In this document: piece by piece, positions 19,888 through 32,100 of the stretch | Position numbering within the stretch: the stretch's first letter is position 1 | Layout of the letters: the number at the start of each line of letters is the position of its first letter | Source of the DNA: Massilia timonae CCUG 45783 | Lineage (GTDB): Bacteria; Pseudomonadota; Gammaproteobacteria; Burkholderiales; Burkholderiaceae_D | Direction of reading: 5' to 3' | DNA length: 64,000 nucleotides | Assembly: GCF_000315425.1 (NCBI RefSeq) | Contig: NZ_JH992922.1 | Coordinates: 584,873 to 648,872 of the forward strand | Notes under the pieces: generated by a model | Seen by the model: the letters and a program-made list of their open reading frames with translations, nothing else | What the model was told of the DNA's origin: nothing | Database searches by the model: none | Translations under genes and position numbers: made by a program

Positions 19888-21429
19888 TTATCGTTGTGAG
19901 GTGGATGCTTCGGAAATCGTCGCCGGCACGCTTGGTGCCTGGGCCGGCAGGTTGAGCGGCAGCGCGATCGCGACGTCGGTGCCTTCGCCCGGGCTGGATC
20001 GCACCTCGATCGTGCCGTGCAGCGCATAGGCGCGCTCGCGCATGCCGATGATGCCGATGCCTTCCGAGGCGCTGGCGGTGTCGAAGCCGGCGCCGTCGTC
20101 AACCACGCGGATGCGCAGCATGCCCTTGCCTTCGTCCAGCAGCAGGCTGACGTGGGCCGAGCGCGCGGCGGCGTGCTTCATCACGTTGGACAGGGCTTCC
20201 TGCACGATGCGGTAGGCGGAAATCGCCAGCTCGTTCGACAGGCGCGCGAAGTCGCCCTCGCTGTGCAGGTCGAAGCGGCAGCCGGACGTGGTGTCGTAGT
20301 GGCGCACCATCTCTTCCACCGCGCCGTGCAGGCCCAGCATGTCGAGTACCTCGGGACGCAGGCGGCGCACCAGGCGCCGGCCGTTGGCGTACAGGTCGAG
20401 CGCCAGCTTGGTGATGGCCTCGGACTTGCGGCGGATCTCGTCGACTTCGGGCCCTGGCGGCGCCTTGGCCGCCAGCAGGCCGATCGACTGCGCTTCCAGC
20501 CGCGCCGCGATCAGGGAAGCATTGAGCTCGTCGTGGATCTCGACCGCGATGCTCTTGCGCTCGTCCTCGATGATCTCGTTGACCTTCTGGATCAGCTTGC
20601 GCTTGTCGGCGTCGGCGCGCAGCGCCTCGTTGCGCGAGGCCAGCAGGTCGCGCGTGCGCTCGGCCACCTTGTTCTCGAGGTCGCGCTTGGATTCTTCCAG
20701 CGCCAGCGACATCTCGCCGATCGAGGCCTGCAGCTCGCCGATCTCACCGCCGGTGGTGACCGGCGGATGCACACGGAAGTTGCCGCCCCGGATCTGGCGC
20801 AAGGTGCCGATCGCCTCGCGCAGCGGCACGATCAGCGAGCGCGCCAGCACCCAGGCCAGGATGCCGCTCGCGGCCAGCGCCAGCGCCGCCATCGACAGCT
20901 CGATCTGGAAGCGGTCGGTCTGCTTGGCCATCATGTTCGCCGGCGACATCGTCACCCGCACCCAGCCGACGACTTCGGTGGTGAGCGTGGGCGGGCGCGA
21001 ATCGCTCGATGCCGACACGTGCGGCGTGCCGTTGTCCGAGAACAGGTTGATCCACACCACCTGCTTGCGGATCGGCGCCTCGTAGAAATGGGCCTGGGCG
21101 TCGCTGGCCGAATCGGACACCACGCGCACCGCGGCGCGTCCGCTGCCGTCGATCACGTCGACCTTGTAGATGCTGCGGTCGGACTGCACCAGGCCGTTGA
21201 TGGTCAGGCGCAGGTCGGACAGGTTGCCCGAGATGACGTTGTATTCGGACGTCTCGGCCAGCGCGCGCGCCAGGATGCGCCCGCGCTCGGCCAGCTCCTC
21301 GGCCACCTGGGCGCGGTGCGCATACCAGGAATACCAGACGAAGGAGGTGAACAGCAGGATCACCGGCAGCATGGTGATGACGGCCATGCGCCGTCCGACA
21401 CCCCAGCCGCGCCAGAAACGCAGGTTCAT
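19888..21429 (-). CDS. Sensor histidine kinase, NarX/HisKA_3 type
   Basis: A 513-residue membrane kinase. TM1 near residues 15-37, a periplasmic sensor of about 140 residues, TM2 near 182-203, a HAMP segment, a coiled coil, then a HisKA_3 dimerisation domain with His299 in AVEIHDELN and an HATPase_c domain (GIGIIGMRERA; SSPGEGTDVAIALPL). This class partners with NarL/FixJ response regulators, and one is encoded two genes upstream. Its start codon overlaps the stop of the preceding binding-protein gene (ATGA), indicating translational coupling. The signal is unknown; the co-encoded periplasmic protein is the obvious candidate ligand sensor. Confidence 0.9.
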   Translation of the reverse strand: MNLRFWRGWGVGRRMAVITMLPVILLFTSFVWYSWYAHRAQVAEELAERGRILARALAETSEYNVISGNLSDLRLTINGLVQSDRSIYKVDVIDGSGRAAVRVVSDSASDAQAHFYEAPIRKQVVWINLFSDNGTPHVSASSDSRPPTLTTEVVGWVRVTMSPANMMAKQTDRFQIELSMAALALAASGILAWVLARSLIVPLREAIGTLRQIRGGNFRVHPPVTTGGEIGELQASIGEMSLALEESKRDLENKVAERTRDLLASRNEALRADADKRKLIQKVNEIIEDERKSIAVEIHDELNASLIAARLEAQSIGLLAAKAPPGPEVDEIRRKSEAITKLALDLYANGRRLVRRLRPEVLDMLGLHGAVEEMVRHYDTTSGCRFDLHSEGDFARLSNELAISAYRIVQEALSNVMKHAAARSAHVSLLLDEGKGMLRIRVVDDGAGFDTASASEGIGIIGMRERAYALHGTIEVRSSPGEGTDVAIALPLNLPAQAPSVPATISEASTSQR

Positions 21430-22376
21430 TGCAGGGCCGGCGCGCGCCGCGCGAAGTTGCGGGCGGCGTCGGTCACGCGCAGGTCGAGCGAACTGGCCAC
21501 CCCTTCGTTGATGATGGTGCGGAAGTAGCGCGGGAACTGCGGCGGATCGAGTTCGCCGGTGCGCACGAAGTCGGCGGCCAGCTCGGCCACCTGGGCGTTG
21601 ATCTCCTCGATCTCGGAATACGTGGTGGCCAGCGCGCCGACCTTGACCATGTCGGCCGAAAAGCCGATCACGCCCTGCTTGCGGCGGTAGGTCGAGAGCA
21701 GGATGTTGCGCACGTTCTCGGCGTTGTAGATGTCGCTGTCGGGCAGCGCCAGCAGGGTCTCGGCGCGCGTCATGCTGTTGAGCGTGTGATTCAGGTCGTC
21801 GCCCGGCGCGTACATCTGGATCTCGGTCGCGTCGTGCAGCGCCGGCTTCAGGAAGGCGGTGTCGGGGCCGAGCAGCACGCCGACCCGCACCGGGCGGCCG
21901 TACAGCAGTTCGGCCAGGCGCATCTGGTCGTTCGGCGCCGGCTCGGCATAGATCGCGGTCATGGCCATGCGGCGCGGCTTGGGCAGGCGCGCGGTGAGCG
22001 TGCGCCACACCTGGCTCGAGGTATAGGCCGAGATCACCACGCAATCGCAGCGGCGCGACAGCGCGTCGCGCAGCGCGGTCGGGCCGATCGCCACGTACAA
22101 CATGCGGCGCTTCTGCGCCAGCTCGGTGCGGAAGGCCGCGAAGGTGGGCACCAGGCGCTTGTACAGGTCGTCGGCGATGCGGTGGGTGACGGCGCTGTCG
22201 TCGCCGGTCAGGATCTGGAAGCGGTAGCCCTGCGCTTCTTCGCGTTCGCGCTCCGCCTGCTGGGCGGCGTGGACGCTGCCGGCCGACAGCGCCAGCATGA
22301 AGGCAAGGGCCAGCAGCGGCGCCAGCGCGGGGGCGCGCCTGCGCTGGTGGGGCATGCGGCGCGGGAGGATGGCCAT
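21426..22376 (-). CDS. Periplasmic ABC-type substrate-binding-like protein of the signalling operon
   Basis: A 316-residue protein with a signal peptide (cleavage near SVHA|AQQ) and the fold pattern of PF04392-type (ABC_sub_bind) proteins: AIGPTALRDAL, ISAYTSSQVW, AIYAEPAPNDQMRLAELL, and RVGVLLGPDT. No transporter genes are nearby. It sits between the response regulator (4 bp upstream) and the kinase (4-base overlap), so it likely presents a ligand or stress cue to the kinase, as binding proteins do in some two-component systems. This role is inferred from operon position. Start ATG at 22376; an internal ATG 7 codons later is possible. Confidence 0.75.
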   Translation of the reverse strand: MAILPRRMPHQRRRAPALAPLLALAFMLALSAGSVHAAQQAEREREEAQGYRFQILTGDDSAVTHRIADDLYKRLVPTFAAFRTELAQKRRMLYVAIGPTALRDALSRRCDCVVISAYTSSQVWRTLTARLPKPRRMAMTAIYAEPAPNDQMRLAELLYGRPVRVGVLLGPDTAFLKPALHDATEIQMYAPGDDLNHTLNSMTRAETLLALPDSDIYNAENVRNILLSTYRRKQGVIGFSADMVKVGALATTYSEIEEINAQVAELAADFVRTGELDPPQFPRYFRTIINEGVASSLDLRVTDAARNFARRAPALQ

Positions 22377-22380
22377 CGCG

Positions 22381-23031
22381 TCAGGGCTCGATCAGGCCGT
22401 GCTTGACCGCCAGCAGGGTGATGCTGGCCTGGCGGTGCACGCCCAGCTTTTCCTTGATCGACTGGCTGATGTTGCTGATGGTCTTGGTCGACAGGTCGAG
22501 GCGCTCCGCGATCTCGGCATTGGTCATGCCCTCGGCCATCAGCTTGAAGATTTCCAGTCCGCGCTCGTCGAGCTGCGACTGCGGCGTGACTTCGCCGCGC
22601 ACCGCCATGCTGGCCAGGCGCGACGCGATATGCGGCAGGAAGTACAGCTTGCCCTCGTGGGCATGGCGCACCGCGGTGGCCAGGTCGGCCGGGTCGCAAT
22701 CCTTGGTGACGAAGGCGTGGGCGCCGAGGCGGTAGGTTTCCTTGATCAGGCTGTCCTGGTCAAACTGGCTCAGGAAGACGATCTTGGCCGCCGGGTCGGA
22801 CTTGAGGATGGCCTGGGCCGCGTCCATGCCGGTCAGCTCGGTGCCGAAGCGCATGTCGAGCACGGCGACGTCGGGGTGCTCGGCGGCGTACAGCGCGGTC
22901 GCCTCGCTCGGGGTCTTGGCCTGCCCCACCACCTGCATGCCCGCCGCTTCCAGCGACATGGCGAAACCGGTCATGACGATCGGGTGATCATCCGCGAGCA
23001 TGACGCGGATGGGTTTGTTCTGTTCTGCCAA
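22381..23031 (-). CDS. NarL/FixJ-family response regulator (TTG start)
   Basis: A 216-residue protein: receiver domain with D14-D15, phospho-acceptor Asp59 in AVLDMRFG and Lys in VTKDCD, then a LuxR-type HTH (GLEIFKLMAEGMTNAEIAER; STKTISNISQSIKEKLGV). The start is a TTG at 23031: AGGAG lies seven bases upstream, and the receiver fold begins at once (MAEQNKPIRVMLADDHP). No ATG in a reasonable position fits. It is the first gene of the four-gene minus-strand operon and pairs with the HisKA_3 kinase at 19888-21429. Confidence 0.9.
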   Translation of the reverse strand: MAEQNKPIRVMLADDHPIVMTGFAMSLEAAGMQVVGQAKTPSEATALYAAEHPDVAVLDMRFGTELTGMDAAQAILKSDPAAKIVFLSQFDQDSLIKETYRLGAHAFVTKDCDPADLATAVRHAHEGKLYFLPHIASRLASMAVRGEVTPQSQLDERGLEIFKLMAEGMTNAEIAERLDLSTKTISNISQSIKEKLGVHRQASITLLAVKHGLIEP

Positions 23032-23417
23032 TTTGATTCTCCTGGCGCGTGGCCGGTGTGCGTTGCCAGTGTCTGGCGTTGCGTTGGCCGGGCGAAAAGC
23101 CACGGCACAGTTGGGAATTATTTCATACAACGGGCGGGGAAGCGAATGGAAAGGCGGGGAGATTTTGTACGCTCTGGTCCGCATTTTTGGGGCCCTTCCT
23201 TTCGCTGGACGCGTGGATGGCGAAGTCGCCCACCTTACGAATGGGCTTGCTTGGTACGTTGACGCACACACAACCAGAAACAAATTTACTAGATTATGGA
23301 TTTGCAAATTGCTAGGACATAGCATATATTGATTCCAACGAGCTGTAGATATGCATTCTTCCAAGGTAGTAAACCTGGCGATCCCGAGGGGTCCCAGAAC
23401 GAATAAAGGAGGTTGCC
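23032..23417. other. 386-bp intergenic region between response regulator and tonB
   Basis: Carries the divergent promoters of the signalling operon and tonB. The half nearest tonB is clearly more A/T-rich than the genes around it. I see no convincing gene; short open frames here have no ribosome site or recognisable product. Confidence 0.6.
23302..23330 (+). promoter_or_regulatory. Putative sigma70 promoter of tonB
   Basis: TTGCAA at 23302-23307 and TATATT at 23325-23330 are separated by 17 bp, in an A/T-rich stretch about 90 bp before the tonB start. Motif match only. Confidence 0.45.
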
Positions 23418-24080
23418 ATGCATTTTTCTGACATCAATCAAGGCGCCGGCGGCAAGGCCGGCAAATTCGCCCTGGTGGCCGGCCTGCACGTGCTGGTGGC
23501 GATGGGCGTCATCAGCACGATGAATGCCAAGTCGATCTCGCTGCCCGCCATGCTCGAAGACAAGCTGGTGTGGATCCAGCCCGAGGTTCCTCCGCCTGCC
23601 CCGCCGCCGGAGCCACCGAAACCCGTCGCCAAGGCCGCACCGCCCGACATCGTGGTGCCGGACGTGGAAGTCGAGGTGCCTGCGCCGCCGCTCGAGCAGG
23701 TGATGGAGGCAAGCACGGAACCAGCGCCGGAACCGGCCCAGCAAACCCAGTCCGAGGCTCCGCCGCAGCCCGCCGCCGCGCCGTCGTCGAACAGCGGCCA
23801 GATGCGCAGCGCCGTGCTGGCCGACGCCAACGGCTGCGCCAAACCAGACTATCCGGTGCGCGCTGCGCGCAATGGCGAGACCGGGACCGTGACCCTGGCG
23901 CTGCTGGTCGGGGCCGATGGCCGGGTGCAGGACTCGCGCATCCAGTCTTCCAGCGGCTCGCGTGAACTCGATCGCGCCGCCGTGCACGCCCTGAGCCTGT
24001 GCAAATTCCAGCCGGCGATGAACGGCGGCACAGCCGAAGCCGGATGGGCGCAGCTCGCCTACGTCTGGACACTCGAGTAA
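23418..24080 (+). CDS. Energy transducer TonB
   Basis: A 220-residue protein with one N-terminal membrane anchor (about residues 15-37), a proline-rich spacer (PEVPPPAPPPEPPKP and later Pro/Glu/Ala repeats, residues 54-125) and a C-terminal TonB domain (about 130-220) containing YPVRAARNGETGTV and ALSLCKF. It would span the periplasm and transmit proton-motive force to TonB-dependent receptors. A near-perfect AAAGGAGG lies at 23405-23412, six bases before the ATG, so strong translation is expected. No exbB/exbD are adjacent, so it must use partners encoded elsewhere. It is a monocistronic unit closed by a terminator. Confidence 0.9.
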   Translation: MHFSDINQGAGGKAGKFALVAGLHVLVAMGVISTMNAKSISLPAMLEDKLVWIQPEVPPPAPPPEPPKPVAKAAPPDIVVPDVEVEVPAPPLEQVMEASTEPAPEPAQQTQSEAPPQPAAAPSSNSGQMRSAVLADANGCAKPDYPVRAARNGETGTVTLALLVGADGRVQDSRIQSSSGSRELDRAAVHALSLCKFQPAMNGGTAEAGWAQLAYVWTLE

Positions 24081-24097: not shown

Positions 24098-24130
24098 AGC
24101 CCGCCCCTCTTCATCCGGCGGGCTTTTTTT
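24098..24130 (+). terminator. Rho-independent terminator after tonB
   Basis: AGCCCGCC ... GGCGGGCT with 8-bp perfect arms, followed by a run of T's (24125-24130), 18 bases after the tonB stop. Confidence 0.85.
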
Positions 24131-24214
24131 CGCCCCGCTTTTTCGTTCCTTTGACAGGCGCATCGAGGCCTGCGCGGGCGACATTTGCTCACAACAACAA
24201 TGGAGAGAGAACAC

Positions 24215-26458
24215 ATGGATGCAACGAGCGCAGCAATACCGGCGATACGTCTCACCGGGTTCATGCACGCCCTTGCCGGCTGCCTGGGACTGGCCGTCCT
24301 GGTCATCCTGGGCTGGATGGCGTTGACGCGACAGGCACCGCCCGAACCGAAGGCGGAGATCGCGGCCGGCAGCTGGAACGCCCGCGTGCAGGAGCACATG
24401 CGGGTGCTCGCGGCCAGGCCGCGTTCGATCGCGACCGAAGGCAATGCCCAGGCGCGCGCATACCTGGCGGCGCAGCTGCGGGCGATGGGCCTGGCGCCGA
24501 CAGTGCAGCGCGCCACGGTGCGCAAATCGGTCGTCTACTACTTCGGCGCCATCCACAACACGGTCGGCGTCGTCCATAACGTCGTCGCCAGGATTCCCGG
24601 CAGCGCGCCGGATGCGGGCCGCCGCCCGGCGCTGCTGCTCACCGCGCACTACGACAGCGGCAACGCTGGGCGCGATGCCGCGCGCGGCGCCGCCACCATG
24701 GCGGCCCTGCTCGAAACGGCGCGCTCCCTGCGCGCCGCGCCACCCGCCAACGACGTCGTGCTGCTGTTCGCCGACGGCCACCACGTCGGCGCGCTGGGCG
24801 CCAAGGGCTTCGTCGAACAGCATCCGCTGGCCCCAAACATCGGCCTGGCGCTCAAGTTCGATCCTGCCGGCGACGCGGGGCTGCGCATGGTCGAGACCAG
24901 CGGCGCGGGCGGCGCCGCGCTGGCCGGCTGGATGCGCGCCGCACCCGAGCTGCGCGGCTCCTCGCTCGAGACGACCCTGGCGCGCATGCTGAACGACGCG
25001 CCGCACGTCGGTCCGCTGGCGGCGCTCGATACGCCGGTGCTGCTGTTCGCCGGCGGCGAAGCCGATCCGCGACAACTGGGCGACGCCATGCTGCGCCTGG
25101 CGCAGGCCTACGGCGACACGCCGCTCACGCGCGGGACGCAGACAGCCGCCGCCTATTTTTCGCTGCCCGTCGTGGGCCTGGTGCAGCACGCGGCGTGGCT
25201 CGCCTGGGCGCCGACGATCCTGTCCTGCCTGATGCTGGGCTTCGCCTGGCGCCGCCTGTTCGGCGCGGACGGCGCGGTCGAGGCGGCGCAAGGCGTGTTC
25301 GGCGTGTGCTTCCTGCTGCTCGTGGTGCGCGTCGGCAGCTGGACCTGGCGCGAAGAGGTCGCCGCCGCCGGCCTCGCGGGCGAGCAGCGCCTGCCGCTGA
25401 TGGTGTTGGTCGTGGCAAGCTGCGTCTTTGTCGCCGGGCTGTATCTGTTCCGGCGCAGCGTCGGCGCCGCAGCGATGGTGCTCGGCGCGCTGGCCTGGCC
25501 TGCGCTGACGCTGCTGCTGGTCGTCTTCTTCTTGCCCGGCGCCGCCTACGTGCTGGCCTGGCCGCTGGCGGCGGCGCTCGCCGCCTTCCTGGTATTGCAG
25601 TCGCGCTGGGGCCAACGCCAGGCCTTCGCCCCGCGCCTGCTGGTGCTGGTGGCCGGGCTGGCGCCGGCCGCCGCGCTGTTTCCGTCTGCGCTGCGCGATG
25701 CCTGGCTGCTGCTCGCGCCGCACCACATGTACCTGCCGCCGATGCTGATGGCGCTGCCGATGCTGTGCTTCGCCTGCCTGCTGCTGGTGCTGCGCATGGC
25801 GCCGGCCGTCGCCGCCCTGCTTGCGCTGCTGGCCGCAAGCTGCTTCGCCCTGCCGGGACAGGCGGCGCCGCGCATCGCGCTGCCGTCCACATCCGATGGC
25901 CTCGAACGCCTGGTCTACTACAAGGATGCGAACACCTGGCGCGCTTACTGGCTGCTGCCGGAGCAGCCGCTCGACGACTGGCGCCGCCAGCTGTTCCCCG
26001 GCCGCCAGCCGACCATCTTCGTCGAAGTCTTCGGCTGGAACAGCCCGCGCCAGTGGTATGCCGAGGCGCCGCGCGAGGATGCGATCGCCTTCCCCGAATG
26101 CTTCGCCCTGCTCAACACCGTCGGCAAGGTGCGGCGCGGCACGTTCACTGTGCGCTCAAAAAACCGCGCGCCGCACATCGAGCTGCGCATGTCGGGCGCC
26201 AAGGCGCTGCGCTCGCGGCTCGACGGCGTGCCGCTCACGTCAAAGGAGGCGCCGTGGATGCTGTCGCTGTACGGGATGGAAGACCGGGTGCTGCACTTCG
26301 AGATCGAGAGCGCGCCGGAAGAGATTTTCGCGATTACCGTGCAGGAGCGCATGCCCGGCGTGCCGCAGCATCTGCTACCGTCGCGCGAGCAAGGCGCCCC
26401 GTATTTACGGGAACAATCGGGAATGACGATGTCGACCGATATCCTGCGATTTTATTGA
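24215..26458 (+). CDS. M28-like membrane peptidase homologue with lost metal site (probable pseudoenzyme)
   Basis: A 747-residue protein: one N-terminal TM helix (about 14-38), an M28 aminopeptidase-like domain (about 50-310), then several TM helices (about 315-560) and a C-terminal soluble domain, the layout of large membrane M28 peptidases. The first zinc motif is kept (H145-Y-D-S), but the usual D-D pair after it reads R-G, the general-base/ligand D-G-E-E motif reads D-G-H189-H190, and the final Y-H-T-P histidine motif is absent. It therefore looks catalytically dead. Start: ATG at 24215 with GGAGAG upstream; ATG at 24200 is less favoured. An intact secreted M28 follows 71 bp downstream. 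Confidence 0.75.
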   Translation: MDATSAAIPAIRLTGFMHALAGCLGLAVLVILGWMALTRQAPPEPKAEIAAGSWNARVQEHMRVLAARPRSIATEGNAQARAYLAAQLRAMGLAPTVQRATVRKSVVYYFGAIHNTVGVVHNVVARIPGSAPDAGRRPALLLTAHYDSGNAGRDAARGAATMAALLETARSLRAAPPANDVVLLFADGHHVGALGAKGFVEQHPLAPNIGLALKFDPAGDAGLRMVETSGAGGAALAGWMRAAPELRGSSLETTLARMLNDAPHVGPLAALDTPVLLFAGGEADPRQLGDAMLRLAQAYGDTPLTRGTQTAAAYFSLPVVGLVQHAAWLAWAPTILSCLMLGFAWRRLFGADGAVEAAQGVFGVCFLLLVVRVGSWTWREEVAAAGLAGEQRLPLMVLVVASCVFVAGLYLFRRSVGAAAMVLGALAWPALTLLLVVFFLPGAAYVLAWPLAAALAAFLVLQSRWGQRQAFAPRLLVLVAGLAPAAALFPSALRDAWLLLAPHHMYLPPMLMALPMLCFACLLLVLRMAPAVAALLALLAASCFALPGQAAPRIALPSTSDGLERLVYYKDANTWRAYWLLPEQPLDDWRRQLFPGRQPTIFVEVFGWNSPRQWYAEAPREDAIAFPECFALLNTVGKVRRGTFTVRSKNRAPHIELRMSGAKALRSRLDGVPLTSKEAPWMLSLYGMEDRVLHFEIESAPEEIFAITVQERMPGVPQHLLPSREQGAPYLREQSGMTMSTDILRFY

Positions 26459-26529: not shown

Positions 26530-28155
26530 ATGTACAAGATCGTCTCTTCCCTCGTCCTCACCGCCCTCGCCGGCAGCCTGGCGCTGGCCTATCCGGCCTA
26601 TGCCCAGAACGTGCAAAACGTCCAGGAAGCGCCGCTGCGCGCGCACCTGGCCCACCTGTCCGCCGACGCCATGGAAGGCCGCGGCACCGGCCAGCGCGGC
26701 GGCGAGCTGACCGTCGCCTACCTCGAGGCGCAGGCGAAGGCCGCCGGCCTGAAGCCGGCCAACGGCAGCAGCTTCCGCCAGGCGGTCAAGATCGCCGGCG
26801 TGCGTTCGCTGCCGGCCAAGAGCGACATCGCGATCACCGCCGGCGGCAAGGCGCTGCCGCTGCAGTTCGGCGCTGACTGGGTCTGGGGCCCGGGCGACGG
26901 CAAGGCCGATCACAAGCTGGACGCGGACCTGGTCTTCGTCGGCTACGGCACCGTGGCGCCGGAAGAAGGCGGCTGGAACGACTTCAAGGGCATGAACCTG
27001 AAGGGCAAGGTGCTGGTGATGATGGTGAACGATCCGCTGCCGACCGCGGCGGAACCGAACCGCTTCAACGGCGAAGGCCTGACCTACTACGGCCGCTGGA
27101 CCTATAAATTCGAGGAAGCGGCGCGCCAGGGCGCGGCCGGCGCCATCCTGATCCACACCGACAAGTCGGCCTCGTACGGCTGGAGCGTGGTGCAGAACAG
27201 CTGGGCCAACGCCGAGCGCTTCCAGCTCACCGAAGGCAAAGTGGGCACCGGCCTGCAGGGCTGGATGACCGATGACACCGCACGCAAGGTGTTCGCCGCC
27301 GCCGGCCAGGACCTCGATAAACTGCGCGCCGCGGCCGAAGACAAGAACTTCAAGCCGGTGACGCTGAAGGCCCGCCTGAAGGGCACGGCCCGCGCAGAGG
27401 TACGCAAGCTCGAAGAGTTCAACGTGGCCGGCATCGTGCCCGGCACCGATCCGAAGCTCAAGGACGAAGTGGTGATCTACACCGCGCACTGGGACCACAT
27501 GGGCAAGCAGGGCACCCAGGGCGACACCATCTTCAACGGCGCGGTCGACAATGCCTCGGGCACCGGCGCGCTGCTGGCGATGGCGGAGCAAGCCGTCAAG
27601 CACCCGGCCAAGCGCAGCCAGATGTTCCTGTGGGTGGCGGCCGAAGAGCAAGGCCTGCTGGGCAGCGCCGCCTACGTCGCCAAGCCGCTGTGGCCGATCG
27701 CGAAGACCGCCGCCAACCTGAACCTGGACAGCCTGAACTGGGTGGGCCTGGTGAAGGACGTCAGCGTGCCCGGCAGTGAGCGCACCGAACTGGGCGCGAT
27801 GGCGGCCGCCACCGCCCAGGCGATGGGTTTGACCGTCGCGCCAGCGAAACCTGACCTGGCCGGCGGCTACTTCCGCAGCGACCACTTCAGCTTCGCCAAG
27901 GCCGGCGTGCCGGCGTTCTCGGTGGGCGCGGGCCGCAGCTGGGTGAAGGACGTCGAGGCCAACAACGCCAAGGCCGCGACCTACCGCGACAAGTACCACC
28001 AGGCGTCGGACGAATACGATCCGAACTGGGACCTGTCGGGCATGGTGCAGCAGGCGCAGTACACGCTGAACCTGGGCCGCGCAGTGGCCGACGCGCCGAA
28101 GATGCCGGCGTGGAAGGAAGGCGATCCGTTCGGTAAGGCGCGCGCTGCCAAGTAA
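26530..28155 (+). CDS. Secreted M28 family aminopeptidase with PA domain
   Basis: A 541-residue protein with a signal peptide (cleavage near AYA|QNV). A protease-associated insert lies around residues 130-270. The M28 zinc site is complete: H320-W-D, Asp340 in AVDNASG, E372-E373 in AAEEQGLLG, Asp in NLDSLN, and the last ligand in YHQASDEYD. It should release N-terminal residues from peptides in the periplasm or medium. AGGA lies six bases before the ATG. It is downstream of the degenerate M28-like gene on the same strand and ends in a strong terminator, so the two may form one transcript. Confidence 0.9.
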   Translation: MYKIVSSLVLTALAGSLALAYPAYAQNVQNVQEAPLRAHLAHLSADAMEGRGTGQRGGELTVAYLEAQAKAAGLKPANGSSFRQAVKIAGVRSLPAKSDIAITAGGKALPLQFGADWVWGPGDGKADHKLDADLVFVGYGTVAPEEGGWNDFKGMNLKGKVLVMMVNDPLPTAAEPNRFNGEGLTYYGRWTYKFEEAARQGAAGAILIHTDKSASYGWSVVQNSWANAERFQLTEGKVGTGLQGWMTDDTARKVFAAAGQDLDKLRAAAEDKNFKPVTLKARLKGTARAEVRKLEEFNVAGIVPGTDPKLKDEVVIYTAHWDHMGKQGTQGDTIFNGAVDNASGTGALLAMAEQAVKHPAKRSQMFLWVAAEEQGLLGSAAYVAKPLWPIAKTAANLNLDSLNWVGLVKDVSVPGSERTELGAMAAATAQAMGLTVAPAKPDLAGGYFRSDHFSFAKAGVPAFSVGAGRSWVKDVEANNAKAATYRDKYHQASDEYDPNWDLSGMVQQAQYTLNLGRAVADAPKMPAWKEGDPFGKARAAK

Positions 28156-30204: not shown

Positions 30205-32051
<1,847 letters not shown>

Positions 32052-32100
32052 CTCTTTGGGTTTCAAGGCCGCTCCGCAAAGCGGCCATCTTCTCAAAATG

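Follow-up and report, generated by a model that had tools for sequence, protein, structure and literature searches.

Background

The transferrin receptor, nicastrin and nicalin are dead eukaryotic M28-fold proteins in which the fold is kept for binding or assembly, with a membrane architecture and with partners that differ from those of the bacterial protein described here. The aminopeptidases of Streptomyces griseus (PDB 1cp7, 1tf9) and Aeromonas/Vibrio proteolytica (1amp) share the fold with residues 45-304 of this protein (Z about 22) and, unlike it, are soluble and carry a two-metal site. Membrane M28 peptidases with a complete site, from other genera (e.g. loci L029, L030 and L041), share its N-terminal helix, M28 domain, membrane helices and C-terminal domain and can be aligned with it over nearly the whole length; these homologues may be of the ERMP1/Fxna and Pff1 type. 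ERMP1-specific membrane and C-terminal profiles exist in Pfam, and no ERMP1-type profile matched, at E up to 1, the present protein, four complete-site homologues or four other homologues with a dismantled site.

The top two Foldseek matches of the protein are GPAA1/Gaa1 of the GPI transamidase (PDB 8imy_G and 7wld_G; 622 and 625 columns; E 9.6e-10 and 1.7e-8), yet with TM-scores of at most 0.36, an rmsd of about 14 and 16-17% identity. Pfam holds a Gaa1 model, and the Pfam-A search reported no match to it at E up to 1; because of this and of the low TM-scores, the likeness to GPAA1 is best taken as a resemblance rather than membership. GPAA1 belongs to a eukaryotic complex, whereas the present protein is bacterial. 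In the available text of PMC7522609, GPAA1 is given an M28-like luminal domain with altered ligands (proline at site 1, tyrosine at site 5) and is argued, by modelling, still to bind one zinc and to be a peptide synthetase, so that it is not an agreed dead enzyme; the ligand changes also differ, affecting sites 2, 3 and 5 in the present protein (site 1 being kept) versus sites 1 and 5 in GPAA1. Membrane pseudo-proteases with functions of their own are described for the iRhoms in the available text of PMC6451368; these are relatives of the rhomboid proteases, with a fold unrelated to M28. A search of the literature on M28 pseudopeptidases, ERMP1, Gaa1, pseudoproteases and Massilia pseudoenzymes, covering titles and the beginnings of abstracts, with subscription journals mostly outside its coverage, found no description of the family reported here.

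The DNA analysed ('the window') is a stretch of 64,000 nucleotides from Massilia timonae CCUG 45783 (contig NZ_JH992922.1, positions 584,873 to 648,872 of the forward strand). A preliminary description of it had proposed a membrane M28 homologue with a dismantled zinc site, and this was borne out by the reading frame, by the Pfam match and by the survival of only two of five metal ligands. Our best reading, with a probability of about 0.7, is a selected, non-catalytic inner-membrane M28 pseudo-peptidase whose dead fold and C-terminal beta-sandwich would serve binding.

Gene and predicted protein

The reading frame at 24215-26458 (forward strand) starts with ATG, is free of stops and encodes 747 amino acids. 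The Pfam profile PF04389 (peptidase M28) matches residues 122-253 with 57.8 bits, above the gathering cut-off of 21.3, which places the protein in M28 by descent; the match covers profile positions 1-131 of 193 and stops short of the last ligand. Four intact homologues match the profile almost completely, at 144-148 bits; four other dismantled homologues reach 67-89 bits. The features of the locus are as follows (window positions, all on the forward strand).

23418..24080 (+), gene of a TonB-like protein, upstream, named from its sequence
24098..24131 (+), terminator-like hairpin (8-bp stem, 11-nt loop, T run) between the TonB-like and pseudo-peptidase genes; no chance control
24215..26458 (+), gene of the M28-fold membrane pseudo-peptidase, 747 aa; open frame, PF04389 at E 1.5e-15
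24260..24325 (+), N-terminal helix, residues 16-37; helix from the AlphaFold model, membrane nature predicted from sequence
24347..25123 (+), M28-fold domain, residues 45-303; AlphaFold model and VIA-align, putatively on the periplasmic side
24647..24649 (+), H145 at the first metal-ligand position, kept; from alignments
24683..24688 (+), R157-G158 at the bridging Asp and its neighbour (Asp-Asp/Asn pair); from alignments
24779..24784 (+), H189-H190 at the Glu-Glu pair (general base and ligand); from alignments
24860..24862 (+), D216 at the fourth, acidic ligand position, kept; from the 54-sequence alignment
25193..25849 (+), putative membrane domain of about eight helices, residues 327-545; AlphaFold model
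25913..26452 (+), C-terminal beta-sandwich domain, residues 567-746, with many clade-specific conserved residues; whole-protein and domain-alone models, constraint shift
26530..28155 (+), M28 peptidase with a PA-like insert (M28PA); PF04389, PA match below cut-off, site intact by eye

The AlphaFold model of the whole protein (m1667d10a848e; from 35 aligned sequences) had a mean pLDDT of 83.2 and a pTM of 0.81. Residues 45-304 were aligned by VIA-align with M28 aminopeptidases at Z 22-24 and an rmsd of 2.7-3.8 over 220-254 residues (among the first 20 matches listed); M20-family chains score as high as M28 chains, so the fold alone cannot separate the two families. In the predicted structure, residues 45-304 have the M28 fold. 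The C-terminal domain modelled alone had a pLDDT of 90; it gave no Foldseek match at E 0.001 or better, and its best VIA-align Z was 8.4, with unrelated beta-sandwiches from which no functional conclusion was drawn.

Metal site

Which glutamate of the Glu-Glu pair is the general base and which the ligand was assigned from the Aeromonas enzyme. Site residues were placed by alignment with the S. griseus aminopeptidase and 14 complete-site homologues, and the ligands are numbered by the five sites given in the available text of PMC7522609. The ligands of active M28 enzymes are His-Asp-Glu-Asp/Glu-His, two of which survive in the window protein (H145 and D216); the bridging Asp is replaced by R157 and the ligand Glu by H190, and the terminal His is absent, the Tyr-His (Y-H-T) segment having no counterpart in the alignment. 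The preliminary description had thus read the residues correctly: H145-Y-D-S is retained, R157-G158 falls on Asp-Asp/Asn, H189-H190 falls on Glu-Glu (DGEE to DGHH) and the Y-H-T-P segment is missing. The kept acidic ligand D216 was missing from it.

The general base, Glu in active M28 enzymes, is H189 in the window protein. This alone is no proof of inactivity, since for the Aeromonas enzyme the PDB has an entry, 2anp, with the title 'Functional Glutamate 151 to Histidine mutant' (an article of matching E151H title appears in the reference lists of PMC4320195 and PMC3426542, as far as their available text goes); the loss of three ligands is a stronger argument for inactivity than Glu to His at the base. 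The site residues of the window protein recur unchanged in its three nearest homologues (92, 83 and 83% identical), which takes the pattern beyond chance. Of the four genomes with DGHH, one encodes His190 by CAT and the others by CAC.

Dismantled clade and intact relatives

Homologues were found (E 1e-20 or better) in 50 of 294 family genomes, 36 of them with a dismantled and 14 with an intact site, and in 25 of the 27 genomes searched within the genus, the window's own included. 'Intact' and 'dismantled' were defined by the site residues; the complete site in 14 of 14 intact members therefore holds by construction, and the tree is the independent evidence. A second scan used one C-terminal-domain pattern that is conserved in dismantled members, so that its sample is biased toward these; it gave 34 loci (30 labelled Massilia), all 34 dismantled. 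After duplicates had been merged, 54 distinct dismantled sequences remained, the window protein among them; the rows are distinct over the last 600 residues, with near-copies remaining, represent the best frame per locus and include one fragment (L044).

The 54 dismantled sequences retain one to four of six site residues, and the intact sequences (n=14) all six. The terminal His is present in none of the 54 (20 of these cells are gaps and depend on the alignment), the ligand Glu, i.e. the second Glu, in three, its column holding ten different residues and a gap, and the bridging Asp in 17, where eight of the 37 losses are gaps and likewise alignment-dependent. Other positions are largely kept: His at ligand 1 in 44, Asp or Glu at ligand 4 in 50, and an acid at the general base in 50 (Glu in 32, Asp in 18). 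The DGHH motif, headlined in the preliminary description, which suggested looking for it in close Massilia relatives, is shared by Massilia arenae (L002/L091), Massilia sp. HP4 (L003/L092) and L004; with the window this makes four of the 54 distinct sequences, and it is absent from the rest. As the defining change it was ruled out by this count: DGHH is a late local variant, and the defining change is the clade-wide loss, in which the terminal His (54/54), second Glu (51/54) and bridging Asp (37/54) are affected far more widely.

All dismantled proteins lie on one side of a single branch (SH-aLRT 100; 36 rows), and the single clade persists (35 rows, again at SH-aLRT 100) in a tree built without the eight site columns and rooted with the intact outgroup L127, a long-branched homologue from another family with a site judged complete. 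The trees were run in quick mode with SH-aLRT only, the site-masked one without L044 and with stop-to-stop frames of at least 860 residues cut to the last 800. One loss of the site followed by further site drift is the simplest history.

The window's own genome gave no close paralogue at E 0.001, all 15 candidates having been scored. With an intact homologue as query, 37 genomes were searched (32 of the 36 with a dismantled copy and five others, all candidates scored), and strong matches away from the known locus occurred only in G111, a genome without a dismantled copy, and in G238, there in broken pieces in a genome that is 48% complete; a close paralogue that does the catalysis was rejected on these results.

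Shortened forms and losses

Twenty M28PA loci were fetched from genomes without a dismantled copy, and none holds a full copy of the pseudo-peptidase. Five have the TonB-like gene and M28PA with no pseudo-peptidase match between them, one (L075) has a deletion relic with a frame break, one (L078) has a membrane remnant only, and 13 have no TonB match either. L078 (5083-9000) has two tandem copies of the TonB-like gene, and all that is left of the M28 protein is a membrane-only ORF of 254 residues, which matches the membrane part of L039 (E 1.3e-24) and is followed by an ORF resembling, by eye, a glycerophosphodiester phosphodiesterase. Five loci of one neighbouring genus (L034-L037, L040) encode a shortened form without most of residues 360-425 and 500-550, in the membrane region, and without about half of C-terminal residues 576-625, the end of the domain being in frame. 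The gene has been shortened, broken or lost in sister lineages.

Selection and shift of constraint

Between the window and its nearest relative (92% identical) the NG86 dN/dS was 0.246 (95% 0.17-0.35) for the whole gene, 0.153 (0.07-0.26) for the M28 domain, 0.379 (0.21-0.65) for the membrane domain and 0.212 (0.09-0.46) for the C-terminal domain; two further relatives gave whole-gene values of 0.315 and 0.329, and over the three pairs the upper 95% bounds of whole gene and domains were 0.69 or less. By YN00, whose dS is 1.6-2.2 times that of NG86 in the three closest pairs, the ratio was 0.13-0.15 for dismantled pairs. Intact pairs (n=2) gave 0.10-0.12 by NG86 and 0.15-0.21 by YN00, so the excess of the dismantled form is seen with NG86 and not with YN00. 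Against four neighbouring genes, the dN of the pseudo-peptidase was 1.5-6 times higher (two closest pairs), and its NG86 dN/dS in the closest pair was 0.25 versus 0.08-0.12 (M28PA 0.078, TonB 0.100); in the shortened sister group it was 0.41-0.43. The gene is under purifying selection in its own clade, looser than its neighbours. The dN/dS values and the open frames in relatives ruled out a recent pseudogene for the window's clade. The preliminary view that the gene is not simply decaying thus stands for its own lineage but does not extend to the sister lineages, whose copies are shortened, broken or gone.

Constraint within the protein was compared between thinned sets of 25 dismantled and 12 intact rows, from which, as from the tree-length and residue comparisons below, seven shortened or broken rows (L034-L037, L039, L040, L044) were excluded. 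Mean divergence was 0.67 (dismantled) versus 0.70 (intact) in the first M28 part, 1.06 versus 0.70 in the second M28 part, the segment of the lost terminal His, and 0.86 versus 1.79 in the C-terminal domain. Relative to the first M28 part, the ratio of ratios (dismantled/intact) was 0.49 (95% 0.37-0.63) for the C-terminal domain, 0.89 (0.70-1.15) for the membrane part and 1.60 (1.17-2.12) for the second M28 part, the last evolving faster in the dismantled form; the bootstrap resamples columns only, and the intact C-terminal distance is near saturation. Tree lengths on a fixed topology (29 dismantled and 14 intact rows) agree, with 1.33 versus 2.28 for the C-terminal domain and 1.55 versus 0.88 for the second M28 part, each over the first. 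Residues K570, D571, W575 and D742 are at least 95% conserved in dismantled and variable in intact proteins, and P714 takes the place of a residue that is mostly Tyr in the intact set (25 and 11 rows). This shift is as expected if, in full-length forms, the C-terminal domain had taken over from the cleft as the working face.

Neighbourhood of the gene

The M28PA gene starts at 26530, 71 bp past the pseudo-peptidase stop codon, and its product matches PF04389 over positions 1-188 of 193 with 137.5 bits. The preliminary description had called it an intact secreted M28; the gap and the near-full profile match are confirmed, while the intact site (HWD, VDN, EE, NLD and KYH kept) and the putative secretion (a signal-like N-terminus) are readings by eye. 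M28PA follows on the same strand in all 28 dismantled loci with long flanks, and it adjoins the gene in six of the other seven genomes with a dismantled copy, the only listed match in the seventh (G139) being far off. In the pattern-scan set, which partly overlaps the 28 loci, it follows in 31 of 34, with a gap of 9-176 bp in 30 of the 31; in the other three (L115, L119 and L124) the flank examined shows no M28PA match. The pairing is usual but not obligatory, each gene also occurring without the other. Among intact loci with fetched flanks, none of 12 shows the neighbours of the pseudo-peptidase locus (two are cut by contig ends).

A TonB-like gene lies upstream in 25 of the 28 long-flank loci (no match in L054-L056); L093, L095 and L120 also have no upstream match, two of these being the same genomes as two of L054-L056. 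A hairpin (stem of at least six pairs and a T run) stands in the gap between the TonB-like gene and the pseudo-peptidase gene in 22 of 34 pattern-scan loci (no chance control), and a separate hairpin scan with loops up to 8 found an overlapping weaker site with no excess over shuffles. Coupling to TonB is doubtful, given the loci in which the upstream gene is missing and the hairpin that often separates the two. Because of the usually close M28PA gap and the hairpin after TonB, we infer that the genes of the pseudo-peptidase and of M28PA are probably transcribed together, and separately from TonB.

Interpretation

From the lost ligands, the protein is very likely not a peptidase. The coding sequence is under purifying selection and the catalytic residues are lost clade-wide, the combination that marks a pseudo-enzyme; the preliminary inference of a pseudo-peptidase is upheld by these two results, though the Glu to His exchange at the base would not suffice alone. 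Membrane helices, one before the M28-fold domain and about eight after it, would anchor this domain, a topology that we infer. With Arg157, His190 and no terminal His, metal ligands needed for catalysis are gone, and selection would retain the protein for a non-catalytic role, most likely one of binding, in which the dead fold would be a scaffold for peptides or proteins and the C-terminal beta-sandwich would contact a partner or ligand; the gene would probably be transcribed together with the following aminopeptidase gene. A binding or adaptor role is the most economical mechanism; the particular role and partner are a guess, and so is the function as receptor, regulator or partner that the preliminary description put forward. 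In a more specific form, which we think unlikely, the proteins would be a GPAA1-like bacterial family of multi-pass M28 pseudo-peptidases, i.e. post-loss membrane adaptors in which C-terminal beta domain and inert pocket hold a specific substrate, either a peptide or a lipid-linked one, for a periplasmic enzyme encoded nearby or acting beside them. If this specific form is true, bacteria would have their own counterpart of a non-hydrolytic M28 subunit that works within a larger machine.

The partner might be M28PA itself, with the pseudo-enzyme as dedicated regulator or chaperone of the active enzyme encoded 71 bp downstream. The usual adjacency (28/28 and 31/34 loci, mostly within 176 bp) invites this reading, but we hold it doubtful in view of L115, L119, L124 and G139, of the 20 loci with M28PA and no full pseudo-peptidase, and of the uncoupled divergence in L067, where M28PA is 80% and the pseudo-peptidase 42% identical. 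A slow relic, in which activity was lost in an ancestor and the protein persists harmlessly under weakening constraint, its membrane and C-terminal parts conserved for stability, would account for the dN/dS above that of the four neighbours, for the 0.41-0.43 of the shortened group with its missing membrane and C-terminal parts, and for the deletion relic of L075, the membrane part left in L078 and the five TonB and M28PA loci without the gene; we judge it quite unlikely, as each of the three domains has a dN/dS far below 1 within the window's clade, the gene is retained in 25 of 27 genus genomes searched, and constraint on the C-terminal domain exceeds that seen in intact homologues. Improbable as well, to our mind, is an altered metalloenzyme, with chemistry at a one-metal or non-hydrolytic site of H145, D216 and H189/H190 (E189/D189 in most relatives). 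The kept base acid (50/54), D216-type acid (50/54) and His145 (44/54) leave room for it, so that some members may have a residual one-metal site or activity, and the synonymous change at His190 in one of four genomes and the functional Aeromonas mutant (2anp) point the same way; against it stand the Arg at the bridging position here (non-Asp or gap in 37/54), a ligand Glu kept in 3/54 within a column of ten residues and a gap, and a terminal His in 0/54.

The pseudo-peptidase is a bacterial variant of a kind already known from eukaryotes as dead M28-fold proteins. One bacterial family here spans a series from complete site through conserved dismantled form to shortened forms and loss, so that the path from enzyme to non-enzymatic part can be put to the test in ordinary soil bacteria; annotators should be aware that M28 matches in Massilia may not be peptidases.

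Flanking genes

Adjacent ORFs resembling, by sequence, IS21-type IstB and IstA lie at 30205-32096 (reverse strand); their products had no match at E 1e-8 in 40 relatives' loci. In Massilia sp. YIM B02443 about 1.1 kb separates the pseudo-peptidase gene from the following M28 gene (L094:8215-9314). Upstream of the TonB-like gene, the genes at 19888-23200 (reverse strand), to judge by eye those of a sensor kinase, a substrate-binding-like protein and a LuxR-type response regulator, form a block that is matched upstream in the dismantled loci with long flanks, the contig of L066 ending inside it.
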